Part shown: one piece after another, positions 4,678 through 10,477 of the stretch | Numbering within the stretch: position 1 is the stretch's first letter | Layout: every line of letters starts with the position of its first letter | Assembly (NCBI GenBank): GCA_019247135.1 | Contig: JAFAPL010000353.1 | Span: 1-11,678 of the forward strand | From: Chloroflexota bacterium | GTDB lineage: Bacteria > Chloroflexota > UBA6077 > CF-72 | Direction of reading: 5' to 3' | Length of the DNA stretch: 11,678 bases | The notes under the pieces: generated by a model | What the model saw: the letters and a program-made list of their open reading frames with translations, nothing else | Told to the model about the DNA's origin: nothing | Databases searched by the model: none | Position numbers and translations under genes: made by a program

Positions 4678-5499
4678 CTGACATCGAGTGCAGGCGATCG
4701 GCGCCGCCACAACCTGCCAGCCGACCCGAGCTCGTTCATCGGCCGTGCCGCGGAGGTGGCCGAGCTCGCCGATGTGCTGCGGCAAAACCGCCTTGTAACG
4801 TTGACCGAGGCTGGCGGAGTTGGCAAATCCCGCCTGGCGCTGCAGGTCGCCGGGCGTGTCCTGGACCAGTTCCCGGATGGTGTGTGGCTCGCCGAGCTCG
4901 CTCACATCACAGACGCGCGGCTGGTCGCATACGAGGTTGGCGCGGCGGTCGGTGTGCGGCCTCGGCCGGGACAGGACCCGCCAGGCGCGCTGGTCGTTGC
5001 TCTTCAGCGCCGCCACTTGTTAGTGCTCCTGGACAACTGCGAGCATCTCCTGAGCGCGTGTGCCGAGCTTGCCGTAAACCTCCTGCGGGGCGCGAACGAC
5101 GTGCGCATTCTGGCCACCAGCCGCGAGCTCCTGGGAGTGACTGGCGAGACGATCTGGCGCGTGGCCTGCCTGCCTGTACCGCCGAGCGGCCTGGTGCCGC
5201 GTCACCGCACGCTCCGCGCTGTGTTGGACTGGAGCTATGCACTGCTGTCCGAGCCAGAGCAGCAACTGTTCGAACGGCTGAGTGTCTTTGCCCGCGGCTG
5301 GTCGCTGCAGGCCGCCGAGGCCGTGTGTGCCGACGATTCGGCGCCCGAGCTCAGCCTGGCAGCGTGCTTGCGGCGGCTGGTGGCCACCTCGTTGGTCCAG
5401 GCTGAAACGACCGAAGACGGGACCGTGCGCTATGGAATGCTCGAAACGATCCGTCAGTATGCACGCGAGCGCCTGGTTGCTCGCGGTCAGGCGAGCTGA
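4678..5499 (+). pseudogene. NTPase (STAND/AfsR-like) part of a decayed LuxR-type regulator
   Basis: N-terminal part of a large predicted NTPase-TPR-LuxR regulator. Family sequence begins with HNLPADPSSFIGRAAEVAEL near 4708, followed by a P-loop at 4801-4830 (LTEAGGVGKS, where the usual first Gly of GxxGxGK[ST] is Glu), a Walker B strand LLVLLDNCEHLL near 5020-5052, and the downstream winged-helix block RTLRAVLDWSYALLSEPEQQLFERLSVFARGWSLQAAEAVCA. Lesions: the frame is closed by TAG at 4633 and then offers no ATG, GTG or TTG before GTG 4756, which is inside the conserved block (CTG 4678 is a nominal edge only). About 90-100 residues that normally lie between LPVPP and LPRHxTLR are missing near 5179-5193, removing the GxPLALELAA region. 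The frame ends at TGA 5497-5499 because one G is missing in 'caggcgagctg'. An intact copy would bind ATP/ADP as a signal switch; this copy should not work. Confidence 0.8.
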
Positions 5500-6448
5500 T
5501 CCGCGAGCGGCATGCGCGCTACGTGGTGGCCCTCGCTGAGGAGGCGGCGCCAGCGATGCGCGCCGCACCCGTGCTGTCGTGGCTGCGGCAGCTGCACGCC
5601 GAGCAGGACAACATCCGCTCGGCGCTGCGCTGGCTGATCGACTCGGGACAGGTCGAGCAGGCCCAGCGACTCGGCGCCGCGATCGGCGAGCTGTGGATGC
5701 ACCGCGGCCTGCTCGGGAGGGCCGCACCTGGCTGGCCGAGCTCCGTGCACTGGCCAGCAGTAGCACCAGACGCGAGGTGCGCGCTCGACTGGCCGGCGTG
5801 GCTGGCGTGCTCGCACTGGTCCACGGCGACCGCCCCGAGGCGTGGCAACTTCTGAATGACGCCCTGGCCGAGTGGCGCCAGCAAGACAGCCCGCGTGACC
5901 TTGCCTACGTACTCTTGAACCTGGGATTCGTGGCCGGCGACGCCGGTCGGCTGGCCGAGGCGCAGAGCTATATGGAGGAGGGGCTGGTCGCCAGCCGCGC
6001 GGCGGTCGACCAGGTGCTCGAAGCTTTCTGCCTCGAGCGGCTCGGACAATTCGCCTTGCAGCGTGGGGACACAGCCACGGCCGCGGAGTACCTGGATGAA
6101 TCAATCCGTCTGGCCACGGAGCGGGGCGCGCTGCGGGTGATCGGCTATGCGCGCCACACCCACGCCTGGCTGTGTTACGGCGCACACGATTACGGCGCCG
6201 CTCGCGCGGAGTTCGACGCCAGCCGCGAGGAGTTTGCTGCTCTCGATGAGCGCTGGGGCCAGACGCTCGGTCACGCGGGTTACGGGCACGCGGCGGCGGC
6301 CCAGGGTGACGTGGTGGTAGCCCGCGCTCGCTTTCTGGAGATCCTCGGTTCGGCCAGCGAGCCCGGGAATCCGCTGATCCCCTGCTTCGTGGTCGAAGGA
6401 TTTGCGCCTGGCACTGGTCGAGGGGCGGCCCGAAGAGGCGGATGGTGA
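5493..6448 (+). pseudogene. TPR/helical middle part of the decayed LuxR-type regulator (two frames)
   Basis: Continues the same ancestral protein. From 5493 the frame reads ELIRERHARYVVALAEE...WLRQLHAEQDNIRSALRWLIDSG...GELWMHRGLLG, then loses one G near 5715-5717 (GGGAGG where GGGGAGG is expected). From about 5717 the next frame reads EGRTWLAELRALAS... and a run of tetratricopeptide-like helices: LAYVLLNLGFVAGDAGRLAEAQSYMEEGL, AFCLERLGQFALQRGDTATAAEYLDES, YARHTHAWLCYGAHDYGAARAEFDAS. An extra T near 6400 shifts the frame again before [13 protein letters not shown] (to about 6440); the unshifted frame stops at 6448. In the intact family this region is the sensory or protein-binding superhelix between the NTPase and the DNA-binding domain. 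Confidence 0.78.
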
Positions 6449-6726: not shown

Positions 6727-7806
6727 ATGTCCAGACCCGTAATCAGGGTGCCGGATCGGCTGCCCGGACGAGCGTGTGGGTGTCTCTTGCTCCGTGGGCT
6801 GCTCCTGGTGGGAGTCCTCTGGGCACTCACGCTGTCACCGGTCAACGCTCAGCCGAGCAGCAGCGGGCCGGCTCCCGCCCAGTTGCCCGCACTGCCGCGC
6901 ACCGCTCGCATTGGCGTCCTGACCCTTGGCACGCTCGACGCCCTCCAGCCGGGCTTGGGTTACTTCGTCCAGCGACTGGCCGAGCACGGCTATGTCGAGG
7001 GGCAGAATCTGACGTTCGAGCGACGCGCCGCAGAAGGCGACGCGACCCAACTGGCAGCCCTCGCCGGCGACCTGGTCGCGCAATCGCCGGACGTCATCTT
7101 CGCCGCGTTCACACCCGCGGTGCTCGCCGCCAAGCAGGCCAAGGGCACGATTCCGATTGTGATCCCCTTCGGCGGCGACCCGGTAGGGACCGGCCTGGTC
7201 GAGAGTTTCGAGCACCCCGGCACCAACGTGACAGGCATGAGCGACCCGTCGGCCCAGGTCATGCCGAGCCTGGTGCGCGTCTTCAGCCAGGCCATGCCCG
7301 GGGTCCACCGGGTCGCCATCTTCACACCGGCCGGCAATCCCGCCATCGAGCCAGGCCTGCAGGCCTCCCGAGCACTCGCGGCGCCAATGGGAATTCAGAT
7401 CCTGCGGGTCGACGTTGCCGGTCCAACCAACGATGCGCTCGACGCGGCGTTCGATACGGCGGCGGCGCAGGGCGCCGATGGGTTCGTGTTCTATTTCACG
7501 CCGACGACGCCCGCCCTCGATCGGCACGCGGCCGAAGCCGCCGCCCAACGTCACCTGCCGGGCATCTACGAGACCCGCGGGTCGGTGGACGCGGGTGGGT
7601 TGATGAGTCAGACCGTGGACTACAACGCCTCGTTCGCGCGGACAGCCGATTACGTCAATCGGATTCTGGACGGTGCGGACCCTGCCGACATGGCCATAGG
7701 TGTGCCCGAGCAGTTCAATCTGATCGTTAATCTGAAAGCGGCAACAACACAGGGCATCACGTTCCCACCTGACATCCTCGCCCAGGCGACTGAGGTGATT
7801 CAATGA
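6727..7806 (+). CDS. Exported ABC-type substrate-binding protein (PF04392 family)
   Basis: A 359-residue extracytoplasmic solute-binding protein of the ABC_sub_bind type, distantly like TrpX/LsrB-type periplasmic binding proteins. It has a clear Sec signal: a basic start, hydrophobic core CLLLRGLLLVGVLWALTL (19-36) and a signal-peptidase-I-like site VNA/QP (41/42), without a lipobox Cys. The mature protein begins with a Pro/Ser linker and then the family pattern RIGVLTLG (61-68), a helix ending QRLAEHGYVEGQNLTFERRAAEGD, DVIFAAFTPAVLAAKQAKGTIPIVIPFGGDPVGTGLVESFEHPGTNVTG in the first lobe, and HRVAIFTPAGNP, GADGFVFYFTPTTP and FNLIVNLKAATTQGITFPPDIL later. GGAGG (6713-6717) lies 9 bases before the ATG. 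No permease or ATPase is next to it, so it either serves a transporter encoded elsewhere or acts as a sensor. The ligand is unknown. Confidence 0.88.
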   Translation: MSRPVIRVPDRLPGRACGCLLLRGLLLVGVLWALTLSPVNAQPSSSGPAPAQLPALPRTARIGVLTLGTLDALQPGLGYFVQRLAEHGYVEGQNLTFERRAAEGDATQLAALAGDLVAQSPDVIFAAFTPAVLAAKQAKGTIPIVIPFGGDPVGTGLVESFEHPGTNVTGMSDPSAQVMPSLVRVFSQAMPGVHRVAIFTPAGNPAIEPGLQASRALAAPMGIQILRVDVAGPTNDALDAAFDTAAAQGADGFVFYFTPTTPALDRHAAEAAAQRHLPGIYETRGSVDAGGLMSQTVDYNASFARTADYVNRILDGADPADMAIGVPEQFNLIVNLKAATTQGITFPPDILAQATEVIQ

Positions 7807-7831
7807 TCCATTGATCGAATCGATCGATGGA
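7807..7831 (+). other. Hairpin in the gap between the two binding-protein-like genes
   Basis: TCCATTGATCG (7807-7817) can pair as RNA with CGATCGATGGA (7821-7831) over a three-base AAT loop: 11 pairs, one of them U-G. It begins directly after the TGA of the exported binding protein. No T tract follows, so it is not a standard terminator; it could stabilise the 3' end of the first message or reduce downstream expression. Confidence 0.45.
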
Positions 7832-7886
7832 AGTATCGATTTGCATCGGTTGTACTGTCCAAACGCCAGCAGTAGGCTCGAATCAA

Positions 7887-8780
7887 ATGGGGAAATTCGT
7901 GATCCAGCCGCACGTGCGGCTGCAGGAATGGGTGGCCGAAGAGCTGGGCTTCTTTCGTCAAGAGGGTCTCGACTACGAGTTCCAGGCCAACGGCTTTTCG
8001 GCGGCGAGCCTGACCACCGCCTCCGTGCAAACGACCGATCAGGCGCCGATGACCAGCCTGCAACGCGGCGCCCTCGAGGACATGTCGGCGGGTCGCTCGT
8101 GTGACGTGAGCTCGGCCTGTCACTGGGCGGTGAACGCCGCGGCGACCGCGCACCACGGCCGCATGTACGGGCACGCCTACTCGCTCAGCCCAGCGGGCAT
8201 CTTCGTAGCGCCGGACTCACCGTACCAGCGCCCGGAGGACCTGGCAGGTGTAGAAGTCGCGGTTGGCTACCATTCGGGCAGCCACTATTCGGCGATTCAG
8301 GCGCTCGAGCGTTTTCTGGAGCGCGACCAGATCAAGCTCCGTTTCGCCGGAACCCCACACGATCGAACCCGTCAACTGCTGGCGCGCAGTGTGCCGGCCG
8401 CCAATCTCTTCGGCGCCCAGTTCTACATCGCCGAGCAGTTGGGCTTCCGCAAACTTGTCGACGCGACGTTCATGATGGGCTTTCTGCTGTCCTCGCATGC
8501 GGATCTGGAGGACACGGACAAATACTTCCGCGCACTCCGCCGGGCACAGTGCGAGCTCGATATCGAGCCCGAACCCTACAAGCACTATTACATGCGCGAG
8601 CTGCCGCCAGATCTCGCCGAGCTGGTTGACGTGCGCCGATTCGGCCCTGGTGAACGCATCGTGTTCGAGCCGTACACGCGCGAGCTGTACGAACGCACGC
8701 AGCGCTGGATGCAGCTCTGGAACCTGTTGACGCCCGAAGACGCCGCGCAATCTCGATTCGAGGAGGCGGTGTTGGTGTAA
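7887..8780 (+). CDS. NMT1/SsuA-like periplasmic-binding-fold protein without signal peptide
   Basis: From ATG 7887 a 297-residue protein resembles the NMT1/THI5-like and SsuA-type two-lobed binding fold: VIQPHVRLQEWVAEELGFFRQEGLDYEF (5-32) is the typical first strand-helix-strand, followed by SAGIFVAPDS-like and PEDLAGVEVAVGYHSGSHYSAIQALERFL (116-144) and NLFGAQFYIAEQLGFRKLVDATFMMGFLL. There is no signal peptide, so it is probably cytoplasmic and may be an enzyme of this fold (4,5-dihydroxyphthalate decarboxylase is a known example) rather than a transporter subunit. The Cys-rich iron motif of THI5 is absent. An ATG at 7827 is in frame but falls in the preceding hairpin and adds an unconvincing Cys-containing leader, so 7887 is preferred; neither has a strong ribosome binding site. 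Its TAA directly abuts the ATG of the next gene, indicating coupled translation. Confidence 0.75.
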   Translation: MGKFVIQPHVRLQEWVAEELGFFRQEGLDYEFQANGFSAASLTTASVQTTDQAPMTSLQRGALEDMSAGRSCDVSSACHWAVNAAATAHHGRMYGHAYSLSPAGIFVAPDSPYQRPEDLAGVEVAVGYHSGSHYSAIQALERFLERDQIKLRFAGTPHDRTRQLLARSVPAANLFGAQFYIAEQLGFRKLVDATFMMGFLLSSHADLEDTDKYFRALRRAQCELDIEPEPYKHYYMRELPPDLAELVDVRRFGPGERIVFEPYTRELYERTQRWMQLWNLLTPEDAAQSRFEEAVLV

Positions 8781-9466
8781 ATGGCACGCATCTCCTACGT
8801 CGATCCTTCCAGCATCGACGATCCCGAAGTCCGGGCGTTCATCGACGAGGCCGAACGTGTCGGCACGCCGCGGCCTGAGATCCAGCTCATTCGCGCCCAC
8901 GTTCCCGCCGTGATCCGCAGCTTCGTGTATACCTGGCAGAGCGTCTTCAAGAGCGGGCTCGTCGAACACGAATTGAAGGAACTGCTGCGGCTGCGCGTGG
9001 CGACCTCGCTCGATTGCGCGTATTGAGCAGTTCAGCGCTCTGTCCGGTCCGGAGAGCAAGCAGTCGGCGAGGACAAGCTCTCGCAGATCAGCAATTATGC
9101 CGAGTCGCCACTTTTCTCGGAACGGGAGCGAGTGGCGCTGCGCTATGCCGACGCCATCACCTGGGATCCGAGCCTGGCAGATGACGCGCTCTGGGCCGAG
9201 CTGAAAGCCCACTTCTCGGAGCCGGAGCTCGTTGAAATGGGCTTCCTGGTCGGAGTATTCGCCGGCGGCCAACGCTGGATCCACACGCTGGATCTCAGGC
9301 ATGGAGAGGTGCCCGCGGCGTCCACCACCGGATATCGACCGGAGCTTGCGCCCAGTTCCAGGACCGCAACTGGGACTTCAGCCGTTTCGACGTCGGCGAG
9401 CGATTTTTCTACGAGCCGCTCGAACGCGATGAATTCGACGAGCTCGCACTTCCGATCGCGGTCTAA
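8781..9466 (+). CDS. AhpD/carboxymuconolactone-decarboxylase-like protein, candidate selenoprotein (in-frame TGA at 9024)
   Basis: Alkylhydroperoxidase-like family. Residues 1-81 (MARISYVDPSSIDD...LKELLRLRVATSLDCAY) end at TGA 9024-9026; the same frame continues AVQRSVRSGEQAVGEDKLSQ, then FSERERVALRYADAI and ELVEMGFLVGVFAGGQRWIHTLDLRHGEV, which match the family. The TGA falls on the second Cys of the redox CxxC motif (C79-A-Y-X82). Glu67 lies 12 residues before C79, as Glu118 does before Cys130 in M. tuberculosis AhpD. If UGA is read as selenocysteine the active site is CxxU. AGGAGG (8761-8766) and the abutting TAA-ATG support the start. Near 9350 the frame seems to lose one base: the +0 frame turns Ser/Thr-rich and runs to 9494, whereas the -1 frame gives a protein-like end (QFQDRNWDFSRFDVGERFFYEPLERDEF) with a TAA at 9464-9466, just before the next gene. 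With both events read through the product is about 228 residues. If neither recoding occurs this is a broken gene with an 81-residue product. Confidence 0.72.
9024..9057 (+). promoter_or_regulatory. Candidate bacterial SECIS element (UGA plus hairpin)
   Basis: After the TGA, GCTC (9037-9040) pairs with GAGC (9054-9057), then a two-base bulge U9041-G9042, then UCC (9043-9045) with GGA (9051-9053), closing an apical loop GGUCC (9046-9050). The E. coli fdhF SECIS has a bulged U at position 17-18 from the UGA, three pairs, and a GGUC loop from position 22. Here the bulged U is position 18, there are three pairs, and GGUC starts at position 23. The pairing is visible in the sequence; SelB recognition is inferred. 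Confidence 0.55.
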
Positions 9467-9475
9467 TGGCACACC

Positions 9476-10477
9476 ATGCTGCGAACAAGACTGACGGAGC
9501 TCCTGGGCATCGAACATCCAGTGGTGCTGGGTGGCATGGGCGGCGGCGCCACGGGCCACGAGCTGGTTGCCGCCGTGTCAGGTGCTGGTGGATTTGGGAT
9601 CCTGAGCGCCACCTGGTTATCGGCGGAGGAGCAGGCACATGAGGTCAACGCGATTCGTGCGCAGACCGATCGACCACTGGGCCTGAACCACCTGCTGTGT
9701 TTTCTGCACGAGGAGCGCTTTCAAGCCAGTCTCGAGCTGCAGCCGAATGTCATCTCGACCGCATGGCCGTGGAGCGCTCAGGACCTGAGCGGATATTGGA
9801 AACGCGCGCACGAGCGTGGAGCGCTGGTGATGCACATGGTTTCGAGCGTGCACGAAGCGGTCCGCGCCGCGGAGTCCGGTGCGGACATCATCGTCGCGCA
9901 AGGGACAGAAGGTGGCGGGCATGTCGGCTGGATGGGCAGTCTGGTACTGGTGCCGATGGTCGTGCGCGCAGTCGCGCCCATTCCGGTCGTCGCTGCCGGT
10001 GGCGTGGCCGATGGATCCGGCCTCGCGGCTGCCCTGGCGCTCGGAGCGGAGGGCGTCCTCCTCGGCACTCGCTTTCTCGCCACACCGGAATCGCCCGTAC
10101 CCGACGGTTTCAAACGGACGATCATCGAGAGTGACGGGCACGACACCCAGCTGACGGAGATTCCGGACATTGCCGCGGGGAGCGTCTGGCCCGGTGCCAT
10201 GTCACGTGTCCGCCGCAACCACTTCATCGAACGCTGGGCGGGTCGCGAATGGGAGCTGCGCCAGAAGCGTGATGTGGTGGGTCCCGAGCTGGCCCAGGCC
10301 CGCCGCCGCGACGACGTTGACGAGTACACGATCGGTACAGGCCAGACCGCCGGTCTGATCACCGACCTCAGGCCAGCCGCCCAGATCGTGCGTGAGACGG
10401 TCGAGCAAGCCGAAACCATCATCCGCCAACGTCTGGCAGCCGCGCTCGCGGAGTCAGTTTCGGCTGCAACCCGCTAG
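9476..10477 (+). CDS. Nitronate monooxygenase (2-nitropropane dioxygenase family, FMN)
   Basis: A 333-residue TIM-barrel flavoenzyme. NMO-family proteins use FMN and oxygen to oxidise alkyl nitronates such as propionate-3-nitronate; some relatives act on other substrates. Family features in order: TxLLGIEHPVVLGGMGG (7-23), the first FMN-binding strand; AAVSGAGGFGIL (32-43); GADIIVAQGTEGGGHVG (135-151), the QGxExGGH motif with His149 at the position of the catalytic base; VVAAGGVADGSGLAAALALGAEGVLLGTRFLATPES (171-206), the phosphate-binding region; and a C-terminal GTGQTAGLITDLRPAAQIV (287-305). Length is typical. It starts 9 bases after the preferred end of the AhpD-like gene (or overlaps the uncorrected frame of that gene), so it is the last member of the tight cluster. 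A clear ribosome binding site is not visible. The physiological substrate is not determined. Confidence 0.9.
   Translation: MLRTRLTELLGIEHPVVLGGMGGGATGHELVAAVSGAGGFGILSATWLSAEEQAHEVNAIRAQTDRPLGLNHLLCFLHEERFQASLELQPNVISTAWPWSAQDLSGYWKRAHERGALVMHMVSSVHEAVRAAESGADIIVAQGTEGGGHVGWMGSLVLVPMVVRAVAPIPVVAAGGVADGSGLAAALALGAEGVLLGTRFLATPESPVPDGFKRTIIESDGHDTQLTEIPDIAAGSVWPGAMSRVRRNHFIERWAGREWELRQKRDVVGPELAQARRRDDVDEYTIGTGQTAGLITDLRPAAQIVRETVEQAETIIRQRLAAALAESVSAATR

Follow-up and report, generated by a model that had tools for sequence, protein, structure and literature searches.

We conclude that a gene beginning at position 8781 of a contig from a Chloroflexota bacterium (JAFAPL010000353.1) very probably encodes a selenoprotein of the AhpD/CMD fold, in which the UGA codon at positions 9024-9026 is read as selenocysteine (Sec) at the active site. 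The stretch of DNA analysed, 11,678 nucleotides in length, is referred to as the window.

Reading frame and predicted fold

The frame that opens with the ATG at 8781 runs for 81 codons to TGA 9024-9026 and then reopens until TGA 9492-9494, as read directly from the sequence. The first TGA is the sole stop inside this otherwise open frame and sits on the second cysteine of the AhpD/CMD CxxC motif; DCAY-TGA aligns with CxYC of relatives, and the interrupted site corresponds to Cys in 73 full-length relatives. The original prediction had placed a lone in-frame TGA at this cysteine and had the frame continue unchanged into family-matching sequence, and both claims are borne out by the frame, by the alignments and by the conserved C-terminal halves of relatives. 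On the forward strand, the gene comprises an N-terminal half of 81 codons (8781-9023) ending in SLDCAY, at the same residue as the N-terminal pieces matched in databases, the TGA corresponding to U82, and a C-terminal half (9027-9350) that extends to about residue 190 (...TTGYRPELA), as delimited by alignment with relatives, by C-half matches and by a model of the whole product. A candidate ribosome-binding site, GAGGAGG (8760-8766, same strand), lies 14 nt 5′ of the ATG.

The G+C contents of the three codon positions are 0.65/0.42/0.80 in the N-terminal half and 0.71/0.47/0.73 in the C-terminal half, and resemble those of neighbouring genes. The read-through product (190 amino acids, until 9350) matches the Pfam CMD family PF02627 with 28.6 bits, above the gathering cut-off of 23, and neither half alone matched a family at E 0.001 in the Pfam search. 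Beyond the conserved enzyme there is a coding-like tail on the same strand (9353-9466), recognized by composition and reading frames, which uses another frame and ends in DRNWDFSRFDVGERFFYEPLERDEFDELALPIAV before a stop. An apparent frameshift had been suspected within the gene. The composition does change frame at about 9353-9463, but the proteins of relatives end shortly after TGYRPEL, which is in frame in the window, and the shift therefore spares the conserved enzyme. No Pfam family matched the tail. Over 22 residues it shows 41% identity to the C-terminal portion encoded by the upstream gene (E 0.59, a weak match); the tail may be a remnant of a second upstream-like gene, or may reflect a frameshift. 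Elsewhere in the window, a regulator gene (4756-6448) that weakly matches AAA/STAND and TPR families seems to be distributed over several frames (ORFs 4756-5499, 5523-5855 and 5579-6448), suggesting that this contig has undergone indels or decay.

The read-through product, with Cys substituted for Sec, was modelled confidently by AlphaFold (pLDDT 94.3), and Foldseek matches the model to AhpD-core structures, including 2prr (E 8e-6) and Bmp8 (6ohj, E 1.9e-5). The structures 2prr, 2gmy, 2ijc and Bmp8 debrominase (6ohi, 6ohj) share the fold at 18-27% identity, and C79/U82 align with the CxxC of 2gmy, 2ijc and Bmp8 (CAFC/CAYC/CMYC). Classical AhpD is defined by a Glu, the CxxC pair and a His located four residues after the second Cys. 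Glu67, 12 residues before Cys79, is kept in the window protein along with the C79/U82 pair, but the position of the His, which 2gmy and 2ijc retain, is occupied by Arg86. The product thus resembles redox enzymes that have the AhpD fold and a CxxC pair, but lacks one defining feature of classical AhpD.

Our model for expression of this gene is that SelB and tRNA-Sec would decode UGA 9024-9026 as selenocysteine, aided by a hairpin directly downstream, to yield a single chain, some 190-200 residues long, that adopts the AhpD/CMD fold and has an active site formed by Cys79-x-x-Sec82. In AhpD, the attack is made by the second cysteine of the CxxC motif, and the first acts as the resolving residue. 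By analogy, Sec82 would serve as the attacking selenol and Cys79 as the resolving thiol in the reduction of a peroxide, a disulfide or some other substrate.

Interrupted relatives and their cysteine counterparts

When the whole product was used as the query, full-length relatives showed at most 60% identity, and many pieces of roughly half the query length reached identities of up to 89%. With the N-terminal half as query, scoring was confined to the 7997 candidates that had the most words in common with it, and 1016 proteins matched at E 1e-5. Among the best 120 of these that were listed, 106 are exactly 81 amino acids long and 117 stop at residue 81, immediately before the TGA site, which is more than chance would produce. 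The C-terminal half retrieved a matching set of downstream pieces (best 120 of 3608 listed). Both kinds of pieces derive from metagenomes and from MAGs with several labels, including Chloroflexota (P0205, P0212), Mycobacterium (P0111), Anaerolineae (P0285), Burkholderiales (P0282), Gaiellaceae (P0310), Rhodospirillaceae (P0290) and Clostridia (P0230), these names being those of the source MAGs and possibly wrong. The Cys/Sec counts leave out the three N-terminal pieces with a different end point, as well as three long rows that aligned oddly (P0083, P0120 and P0241, the last a tandem protein that was the top-scoring row of the C-half search).

That ordinary gene callers would split such a gene had been anticipated, and 81-residue stubs and separate C-terminal halves are indeed abundant in databases. 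For 26 of 118 stubs, a C-terminal half exists from a contig with an identical number of bases, an agreement that could arise by chance near 1000 bases but hardly for contigs of 272,740 (P0223/P0096), 21,279 or 8,039 bases. The mean identity to the window protein in 23 joined pairs is 84% for the N-terminal half and 73% for the C-terminal half, indicating that both halves are constrained. There are 127 C-only pieces, 122 of which have nothing before the site, and the called starts of these 122 are spread over 14 positions from residue 83 to residue 118, a scatter that fits guesses by gene callers.

These pieces could alternatively represent a truly split gene, whose 81-residue protein and separately initiated C-terminal protein jointly form the enzyme. 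The gene callers do report both pieces, as in the 26 pairs from contigs of equal size, and they place the start at residues 94-95 in 73 of the 122 downstream pieces. We nevertheless judge this arrangement to be very unlikely, because the break hits the catalytic Cys itself, the called starts are dispersed as noted above, and Q85 and R86, which precede the commonest start, are each kept in all 19 C-terminal pieces that reach them. In addition, the 73 relatives with Cys at the site are contiguous, one of them being nested in the interrupted group, and the stop at the site is TGA in the relatives examined at the DNA level.

The nesting is seen in a tree from which residue 82 was omitted and in which 23 of the 26 pairs were used. 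The window protein, the 23 joined pairs, P0006 and the Cys form P0004 make up one group, separate from the remaining 73 Cys rows, and P0004 is the sole Cys protein within this interrupted group. The SH-aLRT value of the group is 84, which falls short of the starred 95 level (from a quick search run without bootstrap). The interrupted/Cys label, with P0006 scored as interrupted, requires three changes on the tree compared with 24.9 in shuffles. The distant CxxU protein of genome G422 joins the window group through a very long and unreliable branch, and the CxxU rows of G736 and G488 are placed elsewhere, on a long branch. The tree has the pattern of Cys/Sec exchange that characterizes selenoprotein families.

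A pseudogene or a sequencing error, in which the Cys codon TGC or TGT became TGA in the window contig alone, would need one substitution, and indel-like breaks are also present elsewhere in the window, in the tail and in the regulator. Of the 120 matches listed, 117 are distinct protein clusters with the identical break, and the second halves are conserved, which makes this explanation extremely improbable, short of a single error common to all those records. The single TGC-to-TGA change that the original prediction had weighed as an alternative is ruled out by this recurrence at the same residue, by the conserved C-terminal halves, by the tree and by the TGA codons of distant relatives.

TGA codons, selB and a candidate hairpin in distant genomes

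The DNA of distant relatives was found by searching sampled genomes with a family profile. The samples comprised 100 and 398 genomes from the phylum of G001, 385 from its class, 24 from the order of G582 and 368 from the class of G008; none of the 398 and four of the 368 matched at E 1e-20. DNA of close relatives was confirmed in none of three viral contig scans, plasmid and phage tblastn searches gave only matches below 60% identity, and one genome-contig scan returned a single relative at 22% identity. The best TGA-bearing match in the genome samples has an E value of 8.9e-35, such that none resembles the window's own clade; closer Cys forms occur in G582, G751 and G753 (E about 1e-75). The TGA codon was checked in the matches listed. 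Fifteen of the 16 TGA-bearing matches listed from the 385-genome class sample carry TGA exactly at the second Cys, as CSYU, CNLU, CPFU, CHFU, CAYU, CHYU or CFYU. In the sixteenth (G675) the TGA is the terminal stop, as is the sole TAA among the matches listed. Altogether, 22 TGA sites at the CxxU position were located in 18 proteobacterial genomes of distant relatives. The Sec reading in the window's clade is supported at the protein level by the break at the same site, and in distant relatives by the TGA codon itself. An alignment of close homologues had been proposed as a check, with Cys expected in most and TGA in others. Cys was found in the 73 relatives and TGA at the equivalent codon in distant relatives, the close relatives being compared as protein halves.

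Each of the 18 genomes with the TGA form carries selB, although these genomes are distant and lie outside the window's clade. SelB scores above its curated cut-off in 11 of 11 CxxU genomes and in five of 19 genomes without a listed CxxU (p = 9e-5, uncorrected for kinship), the latter being G675 and 18 controls chosen from the head of the match list rather than at random. The same 16 genomes that have SelB also contain a tRNA-Sec match of at least 67 bits. The threshold was set in the gap between 67.0 bits and the next best score, 53.5 bits or less, because the Rfam cut-off of 47 is passed by 26 of 30 genomes and does not discriminate. In the order of G582, selB is found in six of six CxxU genomes but also in 10 of the 14 that lack a CxxU match at E 1e-30, and thus selB alone is not specific. 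In the class of G008, G849 (CFLU) has selB and none of three tested Cys-only genomes does. Together with the breaks at the same residue and the tree, the TGA codons and selB of the 18 more distant genomes lend support to the selenocysteine reading of the original prediction.

Decoding of this UGA by another route, such as a natural suppressor, a Trp or Cys tRNA or an alternative code, can be given almost no weight. P0006 has Trp at the site, which may be the code-4 reading of TGA, or equally a real TGG. TGA is also the terminal stop of other genes in the window (e.g. 7804-7806), so that the genetic code is not simply changed, and both the location of the site at a redox Cys and the presence of selB in all 18 genomes with the TGA form favour selenocysteine.

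Several distant genomes carry more than one such gene. G422 has three different CxxU AhpD-like genes (CNLU, CHFU and CHYU; loci L043, L050 and L055) and G665 has two (CSYU and CFYU; L046 and L056), from which it appears that the AhpD-like superfamily has several Sec forms. In four genomes (L041, L042, L044 and L046), a CSYU gene adjoins a paralogue without the active-site Cys (DPYF, DSYS or DSHS), and the two possibly work together as a pair. At L042 (G488:C5:86000-93500), two CSYU selenoprotein genes are located on either side of a paralogue without the Cys pair and share 268 of 270 bases after the TGA and 182 of 240 before it, a difference suggestive of recent gene conversion in the second half.

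Bacterial SECIS elements are described as carrying a guanosine in a small apical loop that lies shortly after the UGA (PMC1088965). In the window, a candidate bSECIS-like hairpin of the bulged type, GCUC-(UG)-UCCG-GUC-CGGA-GAGC (9037-9057, forward strand), carries GGUC at its apex and a U in a bulge; its apical loop lies 24 nt beyond the U of UGA, a spacing shared with relatives. A hairpin with its loop 22-25 nt from UGA, as in the window, occurs at 19 of 21 tested CxxU sites and at 139 of 2835 neighbouring codon positions (4.9%), this rule having been set post hoc after inspection of the relatives. Eleven of the 21 sites belong to one CSYU/CNYU subfamily, and two sites fail the rule. A 22nd site (L071) has CCUUGC-GGUC-GCAAGG, but the loop lies at 21 nt and just misses the rule. 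Within four other window genes, the same rule is satisfied at 66 of 1399 codon positions (4.7%). An initial SECIS scan with wide limits was passed by 148 of 1566 codon positions and was uninformative. The 68-nt context of the window TGA folds no better than shuffles (z 0.52), and Rfam gave no SECIS family in the window, with only an unrelated match below threshold. Because the rule was tuned, the context is not unusually stable and no Rfam SECIS was matched, the hairpin is supportive only. It may resemble the SECIS of E. coli fdhF.

Known families, neighbouring genes and implications

The best curated match is NCBIfam NF053654 (GroundWater_YciW, 'YciW-related (seleno)protein'), to which residues 1-157 align with 92.5 bits; the equivalog cut-off of 310 is not reached, and hence the window protein is a relative of this family rather than a member. 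The score for TIGR01926 (peroxidase-related enzyme), 36.7 bits, also lies below its cut-off of 81.8. Cys-type CMD proteins, such as P0015 of Mycobacterium sp. Root265 (49% identity to the window product) and those encoded by the G582, G751 and G753 genes, have the same domain and a similar length, but carry CxxC-xxQR where the window has CxxU-xxQR and a Cys codon where the window has TGA.

AhpD-like selenoproteins with CxxU have been known since 2005, and AhpD-like or CMD forms are catalogued in several reports (PMC1088965, PMC2398784, PMC9312934, PMC13188914). Those of the Sargasso Sea and GOS surveys (COG2128/YciW, CMD PF02627; PMC1088965, PMC2398784) likewise have CxxU and belong to the AhpD/CMD superfamily, and their downstream SECIS may correspond to the candidate hairpin of the window, a likeness drawn from description rather than sequence; the GOS 'AhpD-like 2' is reported to be commoner in non-marine samples. 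The window clade may be one of these published families. Three selenoproteins were counted in Chloroflexi in another survey (PMC1794560). The name AhpD does not occur in the accessible text of PMC12013277, and the available passages of open-licence PMC texts, including PMC5029168, yielded nothing on the window clade.

The gene is flanked by candidates for a shared operon. The TAA of the upstream gene (7827-8780, forward strand) abuts the ATG of the selenoprotein gene, and its product is perhaps an NMT1-like solute-binding protein (PF09084, 19.4 bits, a weak match under the cut-off of 20.5). Downstream, on the same strand, is a gene of the nitronate monooxygenase family (9476-10477; PF03060, 188 bits). 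These neighbours suggest a possible catabolic or detoxifying operon. The Cys form of G582 has different neighbours (GST, flavin monooxygenase-like and hydrolase genes), and this comparison reveals no conserved neighbourhood.

A bolder proposal, which we consider rather unlikely, is that the window protein represents a large unrecognized selenoprotein subfamily in which C-x-x-U-x-x-Q-R replaces C-x-x-C-x-x-x-H. With the catalytic His of AhpD lost, its selenol might perform chemistry other than alkylhydroperoxide reduction, for example a Bmp8-like reductive removal of a leaving group, within a catabolic operon that includes the solute-binding protein and the nitronate monooxygenase.

If the selenocysteine reading is correct, more than 100 protein clusters in databases, with MAG labels of several phyla including Chloroflexota, would be halves of one selenoprotein. 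Where such clusters are named, they are mostly called 'hypothetical protein' (81 amino acids) or 'alkylhydroperoxidase family enzyme' (about 100 amino acids). The bacterial selenoproteome would gain one more redox enzyme, and the 81-residue stub ending in DCxY would provide a simple metagenome marker for Sec-decoding organisms.
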